A stretch of 39,872 bases of DNA. It comes from Saccoglossus kowalevskii (lineage: Eukaryota; Hemichordata; Enteropneusta; Harrimaniidae). Of this stretch, positions 3,101 to 32,164 are shown piece after piece. The DNA is taken from assembly GCF_000003605.2 (NCBI RefSeq), contig NW_003137823.1, positions 706,956 to 746,827 on the forward strand, written 5' to 3'. The number at the start of each line of letters is the position of its first letter. The first letter of the stretch is position 1. The notes below the pieces were generated by a model. It worked only from the letters and a program-made list of their open reading frames with translations, did no database searches and was not told where the DNA came from. Position numbers and translations under genes: made by a program.

Positions 3101-3630
3101 TCTTTGATTAATGTTTTTTCAGGTAGCGAGAAAGAAAACCAGTAATAATTTGATTGTGATTAAGGCAGCTATGCCAATGTTTTCAGTAAGCTGAGATATA
3201 AGAGAATACAATCGCGTATGAACCTAAAAATACTGTTTTTTTTACGCATGATTGGTTGTCTCTCTCTGGTTGTTTTTTTCTATGTGTTTGATTTTTGAAA
3301 CTGGGTCTTGAAATTGTTATGTGCCTTATATAGTTCCGACTATATTTCAAAAATGTATCCATGATCTTGTGACAATGATGATGATGTTGTGTGTATTTTT
3401 TAAATTTTTTTTTTGTTAAATGACAATTTCAAAAGACACTGGTACCTGTATGTATAAGCATGCTCCATATTCCCTCCAGTGTTTGAGAGACTGTGATATG
3501 TTGTTTCAGGACTTTTGCTATGCAAAGAAAAGATATTGCATTGTTAGTTTGTTACCTATTCATACATTTGTTATTCCTCTCAGATATCAATGGACAAGGT
3601 TGTAATAGTTATGGTACACTATGTTTCATA
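136..3630. other. Gene-free AT-rich stretch
   Basis: Only short open frames (under 90 codons) occur here, with no recognisable domain and no convincing exon. The sequence has many A and T runs. The motif cttctatta recurs at about 2141, 2193 and 2252, and related cttctaatag occurs at the window start, which hints at decayed copies of the same repeat. I see no tRNA, rRNA or transposon end. Confidence 0.6.
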
Positions 3631-4644
3631 TAACTGAACCAATCTCTTCACCTCTTTTGATAACTGAACCAATCACTACATCTGTTTTGATAACTGAACC
3701 AATCTCTTCACCTCTTTTGATAACTGAACCAATCACTACATCTGTTTTGATAACTGAACCAATCACTACATCTGTTTTGATAACTGAACCAATCACTACA
3801 TCTGTTTTGATAACTGAACCAATCTCTTCACCTCTTTTGATAACTGAACCAATCACTACATCTGGTTTGATAACTGAACCAATCACTACATCTGTTTTGA
3901 TAACTGAACCAATCACTACATCTGTTTTAATAACTGAACCAATCACTACATCTGTTTTGATAACTGAACCAATCTCTTCACCTCTTTTGATAACTGAACC
4001 AATCACTACATCTGTTTTGATAACTGAACCAATCACTACATCTGTTTTAATAACTGAACCAATCACTACATCTGTTTTAATAACTGAACCAATCACTACA
4101 TCTGTTTTGATAACTGAACCAATCTCTTCACCTCTTTTGATAACTGAACCAATCACTACATCTGTTTTGATAACTGAACCAATCACTACATCTGTTTTAA
4201 TAACTGAACCAATCACTACATCTGTTTTGATAACTGAACCAATCACTACATCTGTTTTGATAACTGAACCAATCACTACATCTGTTTTAATAACTGAACC
4301 AATCACTACATCTGTTTTGATAACTGAACCAATCACTACATCTGTTTTGATAACTGAACTAATCACTACATCTGTTTTGATAACTGAACCAATCACTACA
4401 TCTGTTTTGATAACTGAACCAATCACTACATCTGTTTTGATAACTGAACCAATCTCTTTACCTCTTTTGATAACTGAACCAATCACTACATCTGTTTTGA
4501 TAACTGAACTAATCACTACATCTGTTTTGATAACTGAACCAATCACTACATCTGTTTTGATAACTGAACCAATCACTACATCTGTTTTGATAACTGAACC
4601 AATCACTACATCTGTTTTGATATCTGAGCCAATCAGTTTGTGAG
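3631..4644. repeat. 30-bp minisatellite, 33 units plus a diverged end copy
   Basis: The period is exactly 30 bases from 3631 to 4620, with no insertion or deletion. A 34th, diverged partial unit runs from 4621 to 4644. There are two unit types. The common one contains ccaatcactacatctg; the other contains ccaatctcttcacctc and lies at 3631, 3691, 3811, 3961, 4111 and, with one change, 4441. Minor variants (ttttaa for ttttga; gaacta for gaacca at 4351 and 4501) mark segmental duplications, for example repeated spacings of 150 bases (3811, 3961, 4111 and 4351, 4501). Each unit carries TAACTG (Myb-type core) and CCAATC (CCAAT box). Frames are open on both strands only because 30 is divisible by three, so I treat the array as noncoding. 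Confidence 0.97.
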
Positions 4645-5886: not shown

Positions 5887-8800
5887 TGTTAGTGAAATTT
5901 ACGATTTTGATTTGAGAAATATGTGGAAACAAGATCCAATTTAAACTTTAATATCACTTGATCGGAAGGCACATCTATAATGCTAATTATTTCAGCTGAA
6001 ATGGGTTATTGATAGGTTATTGATTTGGGTTCTGTTATATACCAAAATAAACTACATTTCATTCATTCAGCACTTTTGTTCAATATATTGTTTCAATTAG
6101 AAGGAAGGAAATGGTGTAAGAAAAAAATAAATTATTAAATCTATCATAGCAGTGATACTTGTACCATTTATACATGTATAAGATTAGTATTTGATAATTA
6201 AAGTTCCCATAATACATTCAACACTTGGAAAAAACTTTGTAGACATGAAATTTGAACATACATTGTATGACTAGTGCTTAAAGGTTACAATCAAACAACC
6301 TTGATTATTAGTAAAATAAAGTATCATGATATAGTTCTTAAATATAGAGATCCATGGTTGTCTCGTGTTGGCGTTCCGTTAGGGAATACTAATTAACCTT
6401 TTTCAGTTGCCAACAGACTTTCCTAATCCAATCAGGAAAAGGATGTGCCATCTTATCTTCATAGGATTATGTTTCAGAAATAAGATATAAATGAGATTAT
6501 CTCAATTTTGGATGTTGTGATTGATCCTGTATGTCCTCTAACAGCAACCTGACTGTATACGAGCCGTCTTTGTATTAATGCTCAATAATCTGTGTGTATA
6601 GATACGGTACAGGTAATAAGTCCAAGAATGTGAATGATGAGATGAGCTACAGCACTTTTTATGCACACTTAGGGGACTGTTGATGTTGTGTTGTCCATTA
6701 TTTAATTTCAGACTCTCCAGACAAGCATTTTCCATCACTTGAGTGTGTGATTATTCTTGGGGATTTTTCACAAGATATGCAAATGTTCACCTTGTGTTTC
6801 CTTATAGTTAGTATTAACTGCTATTTGAATTTTATAATTTGTCTCTAATCAGTAGTAATTTTCCACCATGCTACAGGCCATCTCTATATATTCACTGCAT
6901 TTACAAATTAACTTTACATTGTAGATGGACTTTCACCTACAGCTATTCTCATTACCATGAAATCTGTCAGCAGCAGGATTCAACGAAATATTTACAATTA
7001 TTTTGCACATGCTTCTACAATTAAAATTATATTTTTCCACCGTTTTATATAATATATTTTTATATAGACACATTTCATGGACATGTGACTGTAGATAGTA
7101 GATGTAATATTTGACCAATACATAGCTTAGAGTACAGTTCAAGCATAACTTAACATTTAGCTAACTATTTAGCATATCTTGCTTTCCAAACCTCCATATA
7201 CCTAAATTGTGCTGAGTAGGCTGCCAAAATATGTAAAGTATTGCATACCAACACCTAAATACACCAAGAACATAGAACACTTTTCTGGGAAAATGTCATC
7301 TAACTGTAAGGTCATCACTGATTGGCTGCTGAGTTGGAATGCTAATTTTTGGCCCCCATATAGTAAATATCGCACTTGTGTGCCAGCTGACTGTGACTGT
7401 ACTGTATTTAACAATAATAATTTGTTTTAACTGACAACTCCTATGTTTTTGGGCAACATTGAGACCAGTTTACAATATTTAATTTTTTTATCTTAATTTC
7501 ATTGAAAAATTCTATTAGATATGTGAAAGTTGGCATTACAAGAAAGAACTGTGATTACTATTACCATATTTATTCTAATAGAAGTGCATCTCTAATATTG
7601 TTCTGATGCTACCATACAGCAAATACCTTACATCCCTTATCAAATTGTAGACCTGATTTTGAGCATTAGTTAATTATTCTGCCTACATCCATATATCTCA
7701 TTTAACGGCCAAGTGGATGATCTTTCATTGACCTTCTCCCTCACATATGTGTGACTTAAAGTTAACAAATATATTTCATAGTATTAATGAATAGCTTTGA
7801 AGCTGAGTGAAGATGATATTATCATATTAACCTTTTTAAGACACTCTTCTAAATGCTTCTCAGTATATCCGTAAACTGAAGCCTTATTTAATATATACAT
7901 GTACCATACATTGCTTGGCATGTGTATATTATATTAAGTGACACATTGCCAGATGCAAGTTCACATTAACCCATTTATTTCTATCACCTTTCAGAAAATA
8001 GTTTTAACACTTTTTAAATTAGTATTTGCGGCATTCAAAATTGGTAACACAAAACAACTTGGTTCCAAATTAGTATTACCAGATTAAAACATTCAAATAT
8101 TCTCACTGCAAAATGTATATTAATGATTGGGAATTTCAGTATTCTGAGGCTTGTCATGATGTAAATGCTTGTGCATTGTAACGTGCCTTGATGTTAACTT
8201 TTGAACTTACTTGTCAGAAATGAACATTTGTGTTGCCTGTATTTTTACTATTTAATTAAAGCAATTTGAATGCTAATTTTACTTTTTCCAAAGTATTTTC
8301 TGGGGCAGATATTAGGTGTAGTTGGCAAAACAAAGACAGAAAACTCTCAGAGAACTGTACTTTGGGCTAGTTGTTGTGACAGACACACCTGAACAGAATA
8401 ATAACAAGACCATCCAGCCCTACATGTGTAAATAATACATTTTTGTATAAATGTGATTGTTCAGGATTACCACAAAGTTGAGTTTGTGGTGCTTTCTCAA
8501 CTTTAACTGTTTTCACAAGCTCTTCGACTAGCATTTCACAGTAGCTTGCACTAGCCTAAAGAAATAAATGGTCCAGTTGTACAAATCCGAGTAACATATA
8601 GAACGTTCTGTGCATAGCATCGTCTTTGAGAACAGGACTATATACCCCCTTAGTGTCATCCCTGTGTCGACTCATTCAATTCCAAGTCCAGATCAGTCAC
8701 AGACATACAGACCTATAGAGGAGGGTTAAATCTTTGCTTGTAACAATTTAATGCATGTTACTTCAAGCAGATTATAATATATAATTTCAAACACATGGAA

Positions 8801-8900: not shown

Positions 8901-10805
8901 CTAAGAGCTAAGTTGGTTACCAAGCTAATACTATGAAAGCTCTAATCACAAGACTGGATGGCCATATATGCTGTCACTGATGGCTAAAATGGTTACCAGT
9001 TCAATTCTTTAAAGGCTATACTCACTGGACTGGATGGCCATCTATGCTGTCACTGAAGTCTAAGATGGTTACCAGTCCAATTCTTTGAAGGCTATACTCA
9101 CCGGACACGATGGCCATCTATGGTTTCACTGAGGGCTAAGATGGTTACCAGTTCAATTCTTTGAAGACTATACTCACCAGACTGGATGGCCATCTATGGT
9201 TTCACTGAGGGCTAAGATGGTTACCAGTCCAATTCTTTGAAAGCTATACTCACCAGACTGGATGGCCATCTATGCTGTCACTGAGGGCTAAGATGGTTAC
9301 CAGTCCAATTCTTTGAAAGCTATACTCACCAGACAGAATGGCCATATATACTGTCACTGAGGGCTAAGATGGTTACCAGTCCAATTCTTTGAAGGCTATA
9401 CTCACCAGACAGAATGGCTATCTATGCTGTCACTGAGGGCTAAGATGGTTACCAGTCCAATTCTTTGACGACTATACTCACCGGACACGATGGCCATCTA
9501 TGGTTTCACTGAGATCTAAGATGGTTACCAGTCCAATTCTTTGAAGGCTATACTCACCAGACAGAATGGCCATCTTTGCTGTCACTGAGGGCTAAGATGG
9601 TTACCAGTCCAATTCTTTGACGACTATACTCACCGGACACGATGGCCATCTATGGTTTCACTGAGATCTAAGATGGTTACCAGTCCAATTCTTTGAAGGC
9701 TATACTCACCAGACAGAATGGCCATCTTTGCTGTCACTGAGGGCTAAGATGGTTACCAGTCCAATTCTTTAAAGGCTATACTCACCAGACAGAATGGCCA
9801 TCTATGCTGTCACTGAGGGCTAAGATGGTTACCAGTCCAATTCTTTGAAGGCTATACTCACCAGACAGAATGGCCATCTATGTTGTCACTGAGGGCTAAG
9901 ATGTTTACCAGTTCAATTCTTTGAAGGCTATACTCACCAGACAGAATGGCCATCTATGCTGTCACTGAGGGCTAAGATGGTAACCAGTCCAATTCTTTGA
10001 AGGCTATACTCACCAGACAGAATGGCCATCTATGCTGTCACTGAGGGCTAAGATGGTTACCAGTTCAATTCTTTGAAGACTATACTCACCAGACAGAATG
10101 GCCATCTATGCTGTCACTGGGGGGCTAAGATGTTTACCAGTTCAATTCTTTGAAGGCTATACTCACCAGACAGAATGGCCATCTATGCTGTCACTGAGGG
10201 CTAAGATGGTTACCAGTCCAATTCTTTGAAGGCTATACTCACCAGACAGAATGACCATCTATGGTTTCACTGAGGGCTAAGATGGTTACCATTCCAATTC
10301 TTTGAAGACTATACTCACCAGACAGAATGGCCATCTATGCTGTCACTGATCGCTAAGATGGTTACCAGTCCAATTCTTTGAAGGCTATACTCACCAGACA
10401 GAATGGCCATCTATGGTTTCACTGAGGGCTAAGATGGTTACCAGTCCAATTCTTTGAAGGCTATACTCACCAGACAGAATGGCCATCTATGCTTTCACTG
10501 AGGGCTAAGATGGTTACCAGTCCAAATCTTTGAAGGCTATACTCACCAGACTGATGGCCATCTATGTTGTCACTGAGGGCTAAGATGGTTACCAGTCCAA
10601 TTCTTTGAAGGCTATACTCACCAGACAGAATGGCCATCTATGCTGTCACTGAGGGCTAAGATGGTTACCAGTCCAATTCTTTGAAGGCTATACTCACCAG
10701 ACAGAATGACCATCTATGCTGTCACTGAGGGCTAAGATGATTACAAAAGCCAATGCTTTGAATGCTATCAGCAGTCTTTATGGCCATCAATGTTGTAACT
10801 TAGTA
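8901..10805. repeat. 76-bp minisatellite, about 25 units
   Basis: The landmark g-ctata-ctcac returns every 76 bases (9014, 9090, 9166, 9242 and onward to 10686). Offset over 22 periods is almost nil because one single-base deletion near 10552 and one insertion near 10119 cancel. The first copy (8938) and last copy (about 10763) are the most diverged, as expected when unequal exchange homogenises the middle. Every unit contains ATGGCCAT, expanded to the 10-base palindrome GATGGCCATC in the left-hand copies, and taAGATGGtta. Since 76 is not a multiple of three, no protein repeat is encoded. No differing spacers are present, so it is not a CRISPR-type array. Confidence 0.97.
9469..9772. repeat. 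Higher-order duplication of a two-unit block in the 76-bp array
   Basis: A 152-base dimer at 9469-9620 is followed directly by a copy at 9621-9772. By eye they are identical except at the last base. The dimer is marked by the private variants 'cgactata', 'ccggacacga', 'gagatctaag' and 'catctttgctg'. This indicates a recent unequal crossover or slippage event. Confidence 0.9.
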
Positions 10806-26906: not shown

Positions 26907-27619
26907 CAAAAAATGGTAATGTTTTTGGTCATGGCTCACATCATTAAAAATGAACAGTTTTTTTCACCAGAATTTTAGGAAACTGATCTAAATTTTATGG
27001 ACTATTTTAAGATTAAAGTATAAACCCAGCATGTGAATGAATTTTGGAAAGCAAATTGACCAGAAATGTTTTTATGTTATTTGCATCAATTGCCAGTTTA
27101 TGAAGAAAAATATCTTTTTCTTATCATTTCTGGTATCCACAATACTATGCAATAACTTAATGAGAAAGATCTAGATTTTTGAGAAAATAAAATAAAAAGG
27201 GCATTCCCTAAAAAAAAAAAAATCTTGTTGATTCAGTCTGGCTGAGTAGGAGTCATTTGCTACAAGTTAAGTAAATATACATGCTTTGTTACATTGTAGA
27301 TACAACTGTAACCGTTTCACCTTGCACAAAAGTGGACACACCCTAGGTGGCTGAAATTAGACACACTGGACAAATACAAAACACATGTAGCTAGCTTTTA
27401 TATGTAATAAAAACTATTATGTAATAAAATTAGTGGTGTGTCATTTTGTTATTTAGACAAACTTATCTGCCTCGTAATGAAACAAAAACATGGTTGCATT
27501 ATTGACAAAAGAGTAATTTTTTATTCAGTGAAATAGAACTGGAGCGTTTGTTCAGTGGCATGGGCGGCTGTTTAGCCCATTTGTTTCATTATTAACTTAT
27601 TTTGAAGTGGTGTGAATAG
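26907..27619. other. Gene-free stretch
   Basis: AT-rich sequence with a long A run at about 27210-27221. Nothing recognisable is present. Confidence 0.5.
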
Positions 27620-28366
27620 CTCCCTCATCTTGCTTAATATTTGGTTGATTGCCTTTACAAGGTGTGCCCAAGGTGTGCACTGTAGCTAAGTAGCCACAGT
27701 GATATTCAGCACTGAGCTAGGGAGTCACATGAGTGGCAAAGTTCAGAGTGAGAAGTGACAGCCTTGGCATTCTATGACCTGTATTTTGTGCTGTGGTTGG
27801 CGGTGTAGTGGTGATTCCACAAAAGAGTGTAACTTTGCAGTCATCAGATCTCTTCATTATTCACTGATTACCATTGAGTGGAAATGACATAGCTGTGTAG
27901 CTTCCTTGTGTAGGCTTAATACATGAACCAGTGAGTGGGCACACTTTCCACAGCAGTGTGTGTGTGTGTGTGAATCATACAGGGTAGCAAACGTTGCTGT
28001 GCTGTTGGAATCGGTATGATCAAACCACAGCTGGAGTGGATCTCTATGCTAGGGAAATATGGATTATGATCACAGCAAGCAAAATTAACAGGTGGTGGCG
28101 CTGAACACAGAACTTGGTTTATTTCAATCATCGTGTGCCTTAAACGTTTGTTTTAATCAACATACCAATTCTAATGGAATGAGTTTAATTACCAAGCTGC
28201 CATTGTTCACAATTGTAAAGTAGAACCCACTGATGTAAGTAAGACCAGTGCAACTTTTCATACCAGCATATATTTTATATACCACTGTATTCGTTCGTGT
28301 CAACGGCATTATTTGTTGAATGCATCCCGTAGTCACATCGGTGTCAATCTCTGGACGGTGTTTAAA
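27620..28366 (+). other. Candidate 5' leader/promoter region of the ORF1 locus
   Basis: Base composition rises above that of the flanks, with runs such as 'ggtggtggcgctgaacac' and a (GT)n tract at 27956-27971. It leads directly into the ORF1 frame without an intervening recognisable element. The ORF1 reading frame is open from 28175 but has no in-frame ATG before 28367. Non-LTR elements usually carry an internal promoter in this position; no specific promoter motif was identified. Confidence 0.35.
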
Positions 28367-29128
28367 ATGTTGGAGTTTCCACTCACACGTCAGATATGTA
28401 AACATCAACTGGCATTTTTGTGTTTGATGACCCCACTGATATCAATGGATGACCTCAGCGTGAGTGAGGGACTGCTGCTAGCTATGTTGTGTGACGGTGA
28501 TATCGAACAAAACCCAGGACCATTCAAGTCAAAGCATAAGAAATCTGCCTCGGCCGAAGAATTGAACTCGCTTTCTGTCAGTATGTCGAAAGTGGTTGAA
28601 ATGCTGCACACTGCCAATGAGAATATCGCTGAATTAAACAATAAGTTAGATGGTCAGCAGATTGACTTTGGTCAAATGCAAGATATACAAAAAACCATAG
28701 AAGCAGAGGTGTACCAATTAAAAAAAGAAAACGGAGAGTTGAAAAAAATGGTAAACGGCCAATCGGAGGTGTTAGATAGTTTATCACGCTGCAATAACGT
28801 TAGGATATTTGGAATCAATGAAGACGATCAAGAAGACGAACCCAAAGTGGCTAGCATACTCAGCCATCACCTTGGTATGGTGATTGGACCGAAAACAATC
28901 GAGTGTGTATACCGAGTTGGCAAACCAAAAGATGGATACACACGAGCTGTTATTGTCAAGTTTCACTCCTGGAAAGATAAAATGTTTGTCCTGCACAACA
29001 AACTGCGCTTTAGGGATACACAGTATTTTCTGGTTGATGATATGAACAATAAGTATGGGGAGCACAAGAAGCTGCCACAAGCCAGGCGGAATCGTCCTCC
29101 CTCATGGGCTAAAGGTATTGTTATATAA
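28367..29128 (+). CDS. Non-LTR retrotransposon ORF1-like protein with N-terminal 2A-like skipping motif
   Basis: This 253-codon frame is by far the best coding candidate. The first in-frame ATG (28367) has A at -3; the open frame upstream to 28175 lacks ATG. Residues about 13-25 are hydrophobic. Residues 45-52 are DIEQNPGP, matching the 2A consensus D-(V/I)-E-x-N-P-G-P, with skipping predicted between G51 and P52. Residues about 66-140 are rich in L, E, K and Q and look like a coiled coil. From NNVRIFGI (143-150) through YRVGKP (182-187) and the VKFHSW/K segment to FLVDD (221-225) the order fits the RRM-like nucleic-acid-binding domain of L1/CR1/L2-type ORF1 proteins. A basic tail follows. 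Such proteins bind element RNA in a ribonucleoprotein. The protein is short at the C-terminus and no reverse transcriptase frame follows, so the element is incomplete or the exon has been co-opted. Family assignment is by pattern only. Confidence 0.8.
   Translation: MLEFPLTRQICKHQLAFLCLMTPLISMDDLSVSEGLLLAMLCDGDIEQNPGPFKSKHKKSASAEELNSLSVSMSKVVEMLHTANENIAELNNKLDGQQIDFGQMQDIQKTIEAEVYQLKKENGELKKMVNGQSEVLDSLSRCNNVRIFGINEDDQEDEPKVASILSHHLGMVIGPKTIECVYRVGKPKDGYTRAVIVKFHSWKDKMFVLHNKLRFRDTQYFLVDDMNNKYGEHKKLPQARRNRPPSWAKGIVI
28499..28522 (+). other. 2A-like ribosome-skipping site
   Basis: Codons for D-I-E-Q-N-P-G-P with all consensus residues intact. The preceding residues, LLLAMLCDG, are the hydrophobic, helix-forming context expected in the exit tunnel. 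Known 2A motifs make the ribosome omit the Gly-Pro bond. The upstream product here would be a 51-residue peptide, and the main product would begin with proline. In some sea-urchin proteins the peptide upstream of a 2A motif acts as a signal sequence, and a similar dual fate is conceivable. Confidence 0.85.
29111..29120 (+). other. Candidate splice donor inside the ORF1 frame
   Basis: AAAG/GTATTG fits a eukaryotic 5' splice site reasonably (AAG before GT, then AT). It lies four codons before the stop at 29126. If used, the exon would end at 29114 and the ORF1 domain would be fused to a downstream exon. GT sites are common by chance, so this is only a candidate. Confidence 0.25.
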
Positions 29129-30480
29129 TGTTTCTGTTGTACACAGTTTCATATTTCGTTTAAACTCCTGACATACTACGACATTGTCCAATGCCTTGTG
29201 TTATTCAATTACTTGCCATTTCAAACTAAAGAATGTTTCACTGCTGAGCAGTTTTGCATGCCAATCAGAAACCCAACATTGCTATAGGGGCATGTTATTA
29301 ATGCCCCAGTGGTAATTTACGGTTTAAAAATAAATAACTATTCAGTGAGGCTGTCTTATTTACTGTGGTTTTTTAGCCAGTACTAGTAACGCAGCATGAG
29401 TTGTGTTTATTGTCGTACACTTAATATACAGTGCGAGTGTGTCGGGAAAAGTTCGCTGTAATTTTGAATACCATCAATTGCTTTCTTTAGAAAGATGGGG
29501 TGAATATATCTCACGCTTGATTCATCACACACAGTGTGTATGTTTAGAAGACTAGAATTCCCAAGTAGGGATACTGGGTACAAGAGCATACTGTTAACTT
29601 ATTTACACAGGCGTGTCAAGTTTTAGGTGTTCACTAGTTTATTGTGGTGCCATTAATTGTTAATTCTTAGGTGATTAATCATTGAAGTAAGGTGCAGACT
29701 GTTGGATGTATATATGCACCTTGACTTGTTAGCCTACTAACTGATTGTAATTATGGCGGCTCTTTGTGTAATGTTACCCTGTGAAAATGTACCTTGTACA
29801 CAATCTCATATTGTTCCATTACATGAAACTCAAGGTCATCGCTCTTTGAATACAGGGGTCATTGATTCAGCAGCTGACGCTGACAAAGACTCTGGTGGTA
29901 AATATTTGTGAAATAAATCCCCCAATACCGCAGCAATCCGGTCACCAATACAGGAAAGGTCAAAATTGTTTTCTGTTGCTGACTGCATGAAAGTTTTTTT
30001 TAACACAGCCGTGCAAAGTAGCAATTTGTGTTAAGATACAAACAATTTAGCACAGCTAGTTCAAGTTCATGGATGGCTGAACTCCTCTTTGTTATTTTAC
30101 TCCAATTTGTAATTTGTATAACATGGATTGAATAGAGTGTAAATAGATAACAGCAAGCTGGTTAGAATTTATGGCATTGACTTTGTAATTAATCTATTCA
30201 GTGGTACATCTGTTACAACCATGACTATGCCAGTTCAAAATTCTACTTTTCCTTAGATTTAAATTACAAATTTCTGTACGGTAACATTTTTTTCCTTTTC
30301 ATTTGAACATTGTCAGTTCTTCTTAGTTTCACAGGTGGTTGGTTGGTTGGCTAGCATGATGATAGTATTATGTATCTGCAAAAGATGTTAGTCTAACAAT
30401 CTGTATTTATTAAACATCCTTTACGTGTAGGTATGTGTTGGTGCATGAGACAAAAAATCAGTATTTCTAACCAAAATTTT
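29129..30480. other. Gene-free stretch after ORF1
   Basis: No reverse transcriptase, endonuclease or other ORF2 remnant is visible on either strand. A small perfect hairpin (GGGGCAT / ATGCCCC, 7-base loop) lies at 29287-29307. Everything else is AT-rich and stop-rich. Confidence 0.5.
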
Positions 30481-30552
30481 TTAAGTTGATCCTGATTCCT
30501 GATCAATGGTATATTTTTAAGTTGATCCTGATTCCTGATCAATGGTATATTT
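30481..30552. repeat. Exact 36-bp tandem duplication
   Basis: 30481-30516 is repeated without change at 30517-30552. Each copy contains TTGATC and GATCAA as an inverted pair. This looks like a recent slippage event. Confidence 0.97.
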
Positions 30553-32164
30553 TTTTCAGAAATTCTTGTATTTAATTGCGAGCAACTTCTGTGGAGGTGT
30601 AACATTACACGCTTTGCTATTTATGAAATCCTATACTAAAAATAAATTCTGTAATCATAAATGTTGACGGATGTGTTGTAAACTGTTTATAAATACCAAC
30701 TGTGGTTAGAGTGGCAATACATGCTGATTCTTGTTGACAGTTGGGCCCCCAAATTGGTTTTAAATTGACATAATCAGCATGAAATACACACTAAATTTGA
30801 ATTTTAAACTACTTCCGATAAGTAAATGGGAAAGTGTTGCTATTATGTATGTTAACTTGGTTTGGTTGGTTTTTAAAACAACTCTGCTATTTAAAGTAAA
30901 TCAATAGTTGCAAATTTTGTCAACTACTACATCACTAGACGCTACGTGTTTATATCAGTGAAGTGACTGTTGAACAGCTCCTGTTGGACATACTTACATA
31001 TAGAATGTGTTTATCGAGTTGCTAGACCTGTGTATCTACCTAACATAATTACATTTTTTTCCCCAAGATTTTTTTAATTATCTACCGGTATGTATTGAAT
31101 GTTTTCTGTGGAATTTCAATTTTCTGTGTTGAAAAAAACAAATACACAGTACAGTGTTCTGTCAAATTCAACCAGGAAATCCAATGCAAATTTTAGAAAT
31201 TACACCCTAGAGACAAATGTTTGTATGACAATTCATAATATATAGAAATACAATCCATCTGCATTTGCATTAATTATTATCCAGTTCCATTGCTTCAAGT
31301 GACTAATGCTTCGTCTTGCTGCTGGGAATCTAGTTTGTTGGAATATGAAAACTTTTAATGTATATGATAAGATAGATTGTAAATTTCAGGATTGTAATAT
31401 TCCCACCCTATTTAAATTTCTTACGTCACTTTCACAAAATCGTTCTGTGTGATATCAGCTGCATAATAATTAACTTTTTATTGAAGTAGGCAAGGGGATC
31501 TCCCCAAATGAGTTGTACTCTTCAGTTATTACTAGAACATAATCATCAAGTTACATATTTGAAAATGACATCTAACTTAGTTTTGTGATAGATTGCTGAT
31601 TACTTTTCTACATTAAGTCATTTACCACATAAAAGAAAATATTAAAATGAAATAAAAAATTACAGCTTTATAGAAAGACAATAGTTGAATAATTTTTAGG
31701 TAATTTACATAAAACTGTTTGATTTCTATCTGAGTATGTAGGTAGGATTACCAAAAATACAGGATTTATTTTATTTGGCCTTAGGAAAGTGCAAATACCA
31801 TCTGCCTGCCATGATTATTCCAGCTGTAAGTGGTAATATATGGTTTCAAGTGTTGTGTTCTGGAATCACAACAAAGATATTATGTTTCATTCATATGGTC
31901 TCACACTAGACAGTTTCATTTCACTGCAAAAAATCTTTCTCATATTGTTAATCTTGAAAGAATTATGAAAGTGAAATTTTAGCATGCCAAGAATCATTCC
32001 TCAAGTATGTATAAATGTTATATTTAAAATCTGTGAGGGTTTTACTGTCTACACAAAGATGTGTGTGCACGCTATAGTGTTTGATGTTCGTGACGTAGCT
32101 TCATCATCAAAACATCTGACATGTACTTCTGTATATCAACACGCTCTGACATGTATAGAAATGA
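30553..32164. other. Gene-free AT-rich stretch
   Basis: Short random-looking frames only. I see nothing else in it. Confidence 0.5.

Follow-up and report, generated by a model that had tools for sequence, protein, structure and literature searches.

Odon and colleagues are said to have described, in 2013, 2A-like sequences in retrotransposons of the APE (apurinic/apyrimidinic endonuclease) type that have no long terminal repeats (non-LTR). The presence of 2A in non-LTR elements is on record in PMC4981915 and PMC11512398, and 2A recoding is described as widespread among RNA viruses but as a rarity in cellular genes (PMC12846837). Here we analyse a window, meaning the whole stretch of DNA under study, of 39,872 nucleotides from the hemichordate Saccoglossus kowalevskii (assembly GCF_000003605.2, contig NW_003137823.1, positions 706,956 to 746,827, forward strand), in which one frame encodes a protein like the open reading frame 1 protein (ORF1p) of non-LTR elements, with the complete 2A core DIEQNPGP near its N-terminus. 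The origin of this frame from a 2A-bearing non-LTR ORF1 is well supported, and the locus is probably an ORF1 without ORF2, single-copy as far as searched, from a 2A-bearing APE-type non-LTR family that is still present in the genome. As such, it looks like a further instance of a known phenomenon, 2A in non-LTR elements.

With the APE-type elements the locus shares a 2A core within the element's own frame, and its relatives in this genome show endonuclease and reverse transcriptase (RT) similarity downstream; it differs from them in having no detected ORF2 and no detected further copy. The NLR proteins of the sea urchin Strongylocentrotus purpuratus (Roulston et al. 2016, PMC4981915) likewise carry a canonical N-terminal 2A behind a hydrophobic leader, whereas in the window the downstream protein is ORF1p-like and the leader has 51 residues rather than 26 and is hardly alike among relatives. 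Human LINE-1 ORF1p provides the counterpart for the predicted succession of a coiled coil and an RRM, at an identity of 15-20% and with the C-terminal domain mostly missing from the window protein. Viral leucine-rich StopGo/2A sequences (PMC12846837) have the same core, D(V/I)ExNPGP, with Gln favoured at x, a Gly before the Asp and a leucine-rich tract upstream, but have A, S or C two places before the core Asp, where the window has Asp.

A complete 2A core in an intact ORF1-like frame

A first-pass annotation, made from the letters of the window alone, had reported an intact 253-codon frame with a complete DIEQNPGP at residues 45-52, and both coordinates and sequence agree with it: the frame opens with the ATG at 28367, closes with a stop codon at 29126-29128 (+) and has zero internal stops. 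The start context is TTTAAA ATG T, with A at position -3, and a candidate splice donor (AAAG/GTATTG) can be seen by eye at the 3' end. From stop to stop the frame spans 317 codons (upstream limit 28175), against a longest stop-to-stop frame of 128 codons on average and 197 at most in simulated windows (n = 100), which do not represent the decay of a once-coding frame. DIEQNPGP conforms to the core (D/G/C/N)(V/I)ExNPGP and is the sole DxExNPGP in the window, where 4.9e-5 would be expected by chance across the six frames; the shorter NPGP also occurs once, versus 0.06 expected per simulated window.

Directly before the core stands GLLLAMLCDG, which is leucine-rich, while its last six residues, AMLCDG, are only partly so and end in DG. 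The Gly before the core Asp is found at 37 of the 58 motif sites of the assembly (see below), and an Asp one place further out at 1 of 58. At loci L004, L005, L015, L021 and L031 the leucines are followed by AGDIE or VGDIE, where the window instead has LLLAMLCDGDIEQNPGP, and in alignments to these loci the core region of the window carries 2-4 additional residues.

During any translation of the frame, the nascent chain would stall in the exit tunnel once it ended in DIEQNPG, and the Gly51-Pro52 bond would be skipped, by the established 2A mechanism (PMC12846837). This would yield two products: a leader of 51 residues and an RNA-binding ORF1p of 202 residues that starts with proline and is probably a trimer like human ORF1p. 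Judging by its sequence, the 2A of the window is expected to be active in skipping. In the ancestral element, the same step would have separated leader and RNA-binding protein with no need for a protease.

Consistently with the first-pass annotation, which had placed a coiled coil and an RRM-like domain after the motif, a structure model built on an 11-row alignment predicts two long helices followed by an RRM, and the top structural matches of this model are human LINE-1 ORF1p (PDB 2YKO, 2YKP, 2YKQ and 2W7A). Type II ORF1p comprises a coiled coil, an RRM and a C-terminal domain (PMC4120745); in the window protein the coiled coil is a prediction only and the RRM, related to that of LINE-1 ORF1p, is likewise predicted, and the part after the RRM is longer in L003, L006 and L007 than the window's 25 residues. 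A model made from the single sequence was useless (pLDDT 42), and a fold search with it returned nothing at E <= 0.001. The proposed check of the protein against an ORF1p family by hidden Markov model (HMM) failed to agree, Transposase_22 (PF02994) not being among the 11 Pfam families matched at E <= 1; this profile appears insensitive here, because L002, L003, L005, L006 and L007 are also unmatched at E <= 0.01. The Pfam matches obtained with the window protein were coiled-coil noise only. Sequence searches of the PDB returned zero relatives, and none came from viral contigs or prokaryote genome contigs, which were searched for close relatives only.

ORF1 relatives and motif sites in the assembly

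A protein search, irrespective of the motif, identified seven distant relatives with 26-32% identity. The alignment of the L005 ORF1 to the window begins in the motif region and extends to the RRM (E 2.1e-7). With Lys in place of Asn, the cores of L004 and L005 (DIETKPGP, DIELKPGP) occupy the same position and are followed by similarity to RRM and endonuclease. An RRM and an endonuclease are also present in L006, without the motif and with the N-terminal part in a different frame from the rest, and in L008, with broken frames and no motif seen, while L002, L003 and L007 form a separate ORF1 lineage with no motif. Open ORF1 stretches of 232-276 codons from stop to stop were present in L002, L003, L005, L006 and L007.

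A genome-wide search gave 58 sites for GAYRTHGARNNNAAYCCNGGNCC (D[VI]ExNPGP, with the valine codon GTG outside the pattern) and 0 for the reversed pattern. When Lys codons were substituted for Asn, two sites were found, exactly L004 and L005, with 0 in the control. Clustered by DNA similarity around the motif, 39 of the 58 sites form two groups (23 and 16), others form three pairs, and 13 stand alone, the window site among them. Of the 57 other sites, 10 or more lie beside similarity to LINE ORF1, endonuclease or RT, a lower bound because L009-L038 were taken with flanks of about 1.5 kb; in this comparison row L066 coincides with L005 and counts only once. Of the 89 listed frames beside motif sites, 66 were scanned. 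A full core together with ORF1 similarity is found in L015, L021, L031, L050 and L051, all of them selected by the motif pattern and for that reason no evidence of its conservation. L031, which aligns to window residues 1-62 and 86-223 with one in-frame stop, has endonuclease and RT similarity downstream. Since L004 and L005 were found without the motif, this selection leaves the odds of the explanations unchanged.

No ORF2 and no second copy found

Comparison of the DNA at 27300-31300 with the 572-Mb assembly gave a self match only (no positive control), so that the further genomic copies with the same leader, for which a search had been suggested, were not found, and the protein search of the assembly yielded no close paralogue; copy counts from these searches are lower bounds. 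Within the 40-kb window, tblastn detected no trace of ORF2, and neither did four HMMs, based on sets of 13, 8, 7 and 4 sequences (best E 0.07; no positive control). No target-site duplication was found either, the longest exact word common to 27401-28400 and 29051-31000 having 11 bases. Pfam searches with 37 of the 45 window frames gave weak or low-complexity matches only, the frames listed being those of at least 75 residues outside two large arrays, so that short exons would escape. Two kilobases downstream of the frame, IECVYRVARP at 31000-31029 (+) is identical at 8 of 10 positions to the RRM strand IECVYRVGKP (E 0.27); this weak match lies where there is no long frame and is probably due to chance, though it may be a remnant.

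Given that neither an ORF2 trace nor a second DNA copy was found, we regard the window frame as an ORF1 without its element, as far as searched. Its earlier designation as a retrotransposon ORF1 is upheld by homology and by the predicted fold of a non-LTR ORF1p, but its belonging to a retrotransposon today is not supported. The window element is no working retrotransposon; it is an orphan, either relic or co-opted.

Table 1. Positions of the ORF1p-like frame, its predicted parts and the motif sites with adjoining LINE proteins
Feature	Window position	Strand	Basis
ORF1p-like protein with N-terminal 2A motif, 253 codons plus stop	28367..29128	+	Open frame
Upstream extension of the frame, no in-frame ATG	28175..28366	+	Frame reading
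Predicted leader product, residues 1-51, ending DIEQNPG	28367..28519	+	Sequence and hydropathy; G51/P52 release inferred from the 2A literature
2A/StopGo core DIEQNPGP, residues 45-52	28499..28522	+	Sequence; alignment with relatives
Predicted coiled coil, helices at residues 63-96 and 101-141	28553..28789	+	Structure model; crude heptad count
RRM, about residues 142-228	28790..29050	+	Structure model, fold matches, similarity to relatives
RRM elements: b1 144-148, a1 158-169, b2 178-184, b3 194-199, a2 202-210, b4 221-224 (residues)			Model
Short C-terminal remainder, 25 residues	29051..29125	+	Alignment; mostly low model confidence
Motif sites with LINE proteins adjoining: L015, L017, L021, L031, L039, L040, L049, L050, L051, L059			

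Other 2A sites and repeats

Two repeat groups account for 39 of the 58 canonical 2A sites (23 and 16 loci, among L009-L065). Some of these loci run on into a common protein region (VVVTGTVYQGS...; TSNCDITGQGKL...), which 20 loci match; the longest version of it, that of L022, matched nothing in Pfam at E <= 0.01, and we presume that it resembles the cysteine-protease-like region of mobile elements. L051 and L006 are near-alike after the motif, and before it only LQCAG and YQQAS are comparable by eye; with the motif absent in L006, this pair appears by eye to be a natural loss of 2A within one element family.

In L067 (G000:C3059:1-10000), a 2A leader exon, MSLLNF...FLLQCGDVEENPGPLPSAE, at 7019-7182 precedes a CARD exon at 8063-8364 (Pfam E 2.6e-9), in phase and with GTGAGT/CAG splice sites, the link between the two exons being a prediction. 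Further on, at 1-3420 of L068, lies a frame of 1140 codons that has leucine-rich repeats (2.3e-16) and weakly matches NACHT (5.2e-4, below the cut-off). From its sequence, the C3059 locus appears to be an NLR gene that carries a 2A leader, as NLR genes of the sea urchin do.

The window itself is AT-rich with minisatellites, one with a 30-base unit in 33.5 copies at 3630-4635, where frames of 340 and 370 codons are open on the two strands, and one with a 76-base unit in 24.5 copies at 8907-10768.

Discussion

Three points weigh against the window's DIEQNPGP as a 2A that descends from a 2A-bearing ORF1 and still skips. The DG that precedes the core is unusual, an ending that belongs to a different 2A class, DLTxDG (PMC12846837); the additional residues in the core region could matter for recoding, since an altered hydrophobic tract beside the core reduced it in sea-urchin NLRs (PMC4981915); and none of the seven relatives found irrespective of the motif has the full DxExNPGP. 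The first-pass annotation had counted copies without a conserved motif as evidence against its own proposal, and the outcome is mixed, as two of the seven, L004 and L005, do have a one-residue variant at the same place. The first and the last of these points would also suit an accidental, functionless motif, an explanation that we hold to be extremely unlikely in view of the minute chance expectation per window, of the match of L005 and L004 to seven of the eight core positions at the same place, and of the 58 sites genome-wide versus 0 in the control. An origin from a 2A-bearing non-LTR ORF1 being preferred to accident, the leader could still have a role of its own, as in sea-urchin NLRs, with unskipped product directed to the secretory pathway and skipped product left in the cytosol. 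The hydrophobic stretch of the leader noted in the first pass is real (residues 15-25, mean Kyte-Doolittle 2.40), and N-terminal 2A signal sequences provide a precedent (PMC4981915). However, outside the motif the leader resembles only one of four relatives, L031, and that marginally (45 of 2000 shuffles did equally well), and is not like those of L004, L005 and L015 (913, 636 and 633 of 2000, compared over the final 45 pre-motif residues for L015 and the final 40 for L005), and the secretory pathway would be of no evident use to an RNA-binding ORF1p-like protein. Dual targeting is therefore very improbable, and the suggested function as a targeting peptide found no support beyond hydropathy.

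For an orphan ORF1, what has to be weighed is its state. That it is a relic, what remains of a retrotransposon copy after 3' deletion or rearrangement, with an ORF1 that is open by accident and gives no product, has about an even chance: no ORF2 and no repeated flanks were found and the C-terminus is shortened, but as no close source copy was found such a relic should be old, and it nevertheless retains 317 stop-free codons, well above the simulated maximum. The same facts bear on co-option, in which the ORF1 was kept as a single-copy gene for an RNA-binding protein and the 2A still splits off the leader. In favour of this explanation are the 253 open codons, with no ORF2 within 40 kb and no close paralogue or DNA copy in 572 Mb; the 32% identity of the best relative, which points to an old copy whose frame, if unconstrained, would be expected to have decayed; and the 2A ahead of the CARD exon of an apparent host gene in the same genome. 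On the other hand, open ORF1 stretches of similar length are not rare among the relatives, and because other ORF1s also have them the intact frame is weak evidence for retention, for which it argues mildly. We consider co-option unlikely, though a serious contender, and slightly more doubtful the specific proposal that a domesticated ORF1 has survived its retrotransposon as a single-copy host gene, encodes an RNA-binding ORF1p and still has a functional 2A.

The 58 canonical sites of this assembly are distributed over non-LTR ORF1s, over two repeat families (23 and 16 loci) and over a single exon that precedes the CARD exon of an apparent immune-receptor gene. A lone 2A-bearing ORF1 without ORF2 is a place for testing the passage of the motif from mobile elements to host genes and, if domestication is true, the ORF1 would be a cellular protein made by ribosome skipping.
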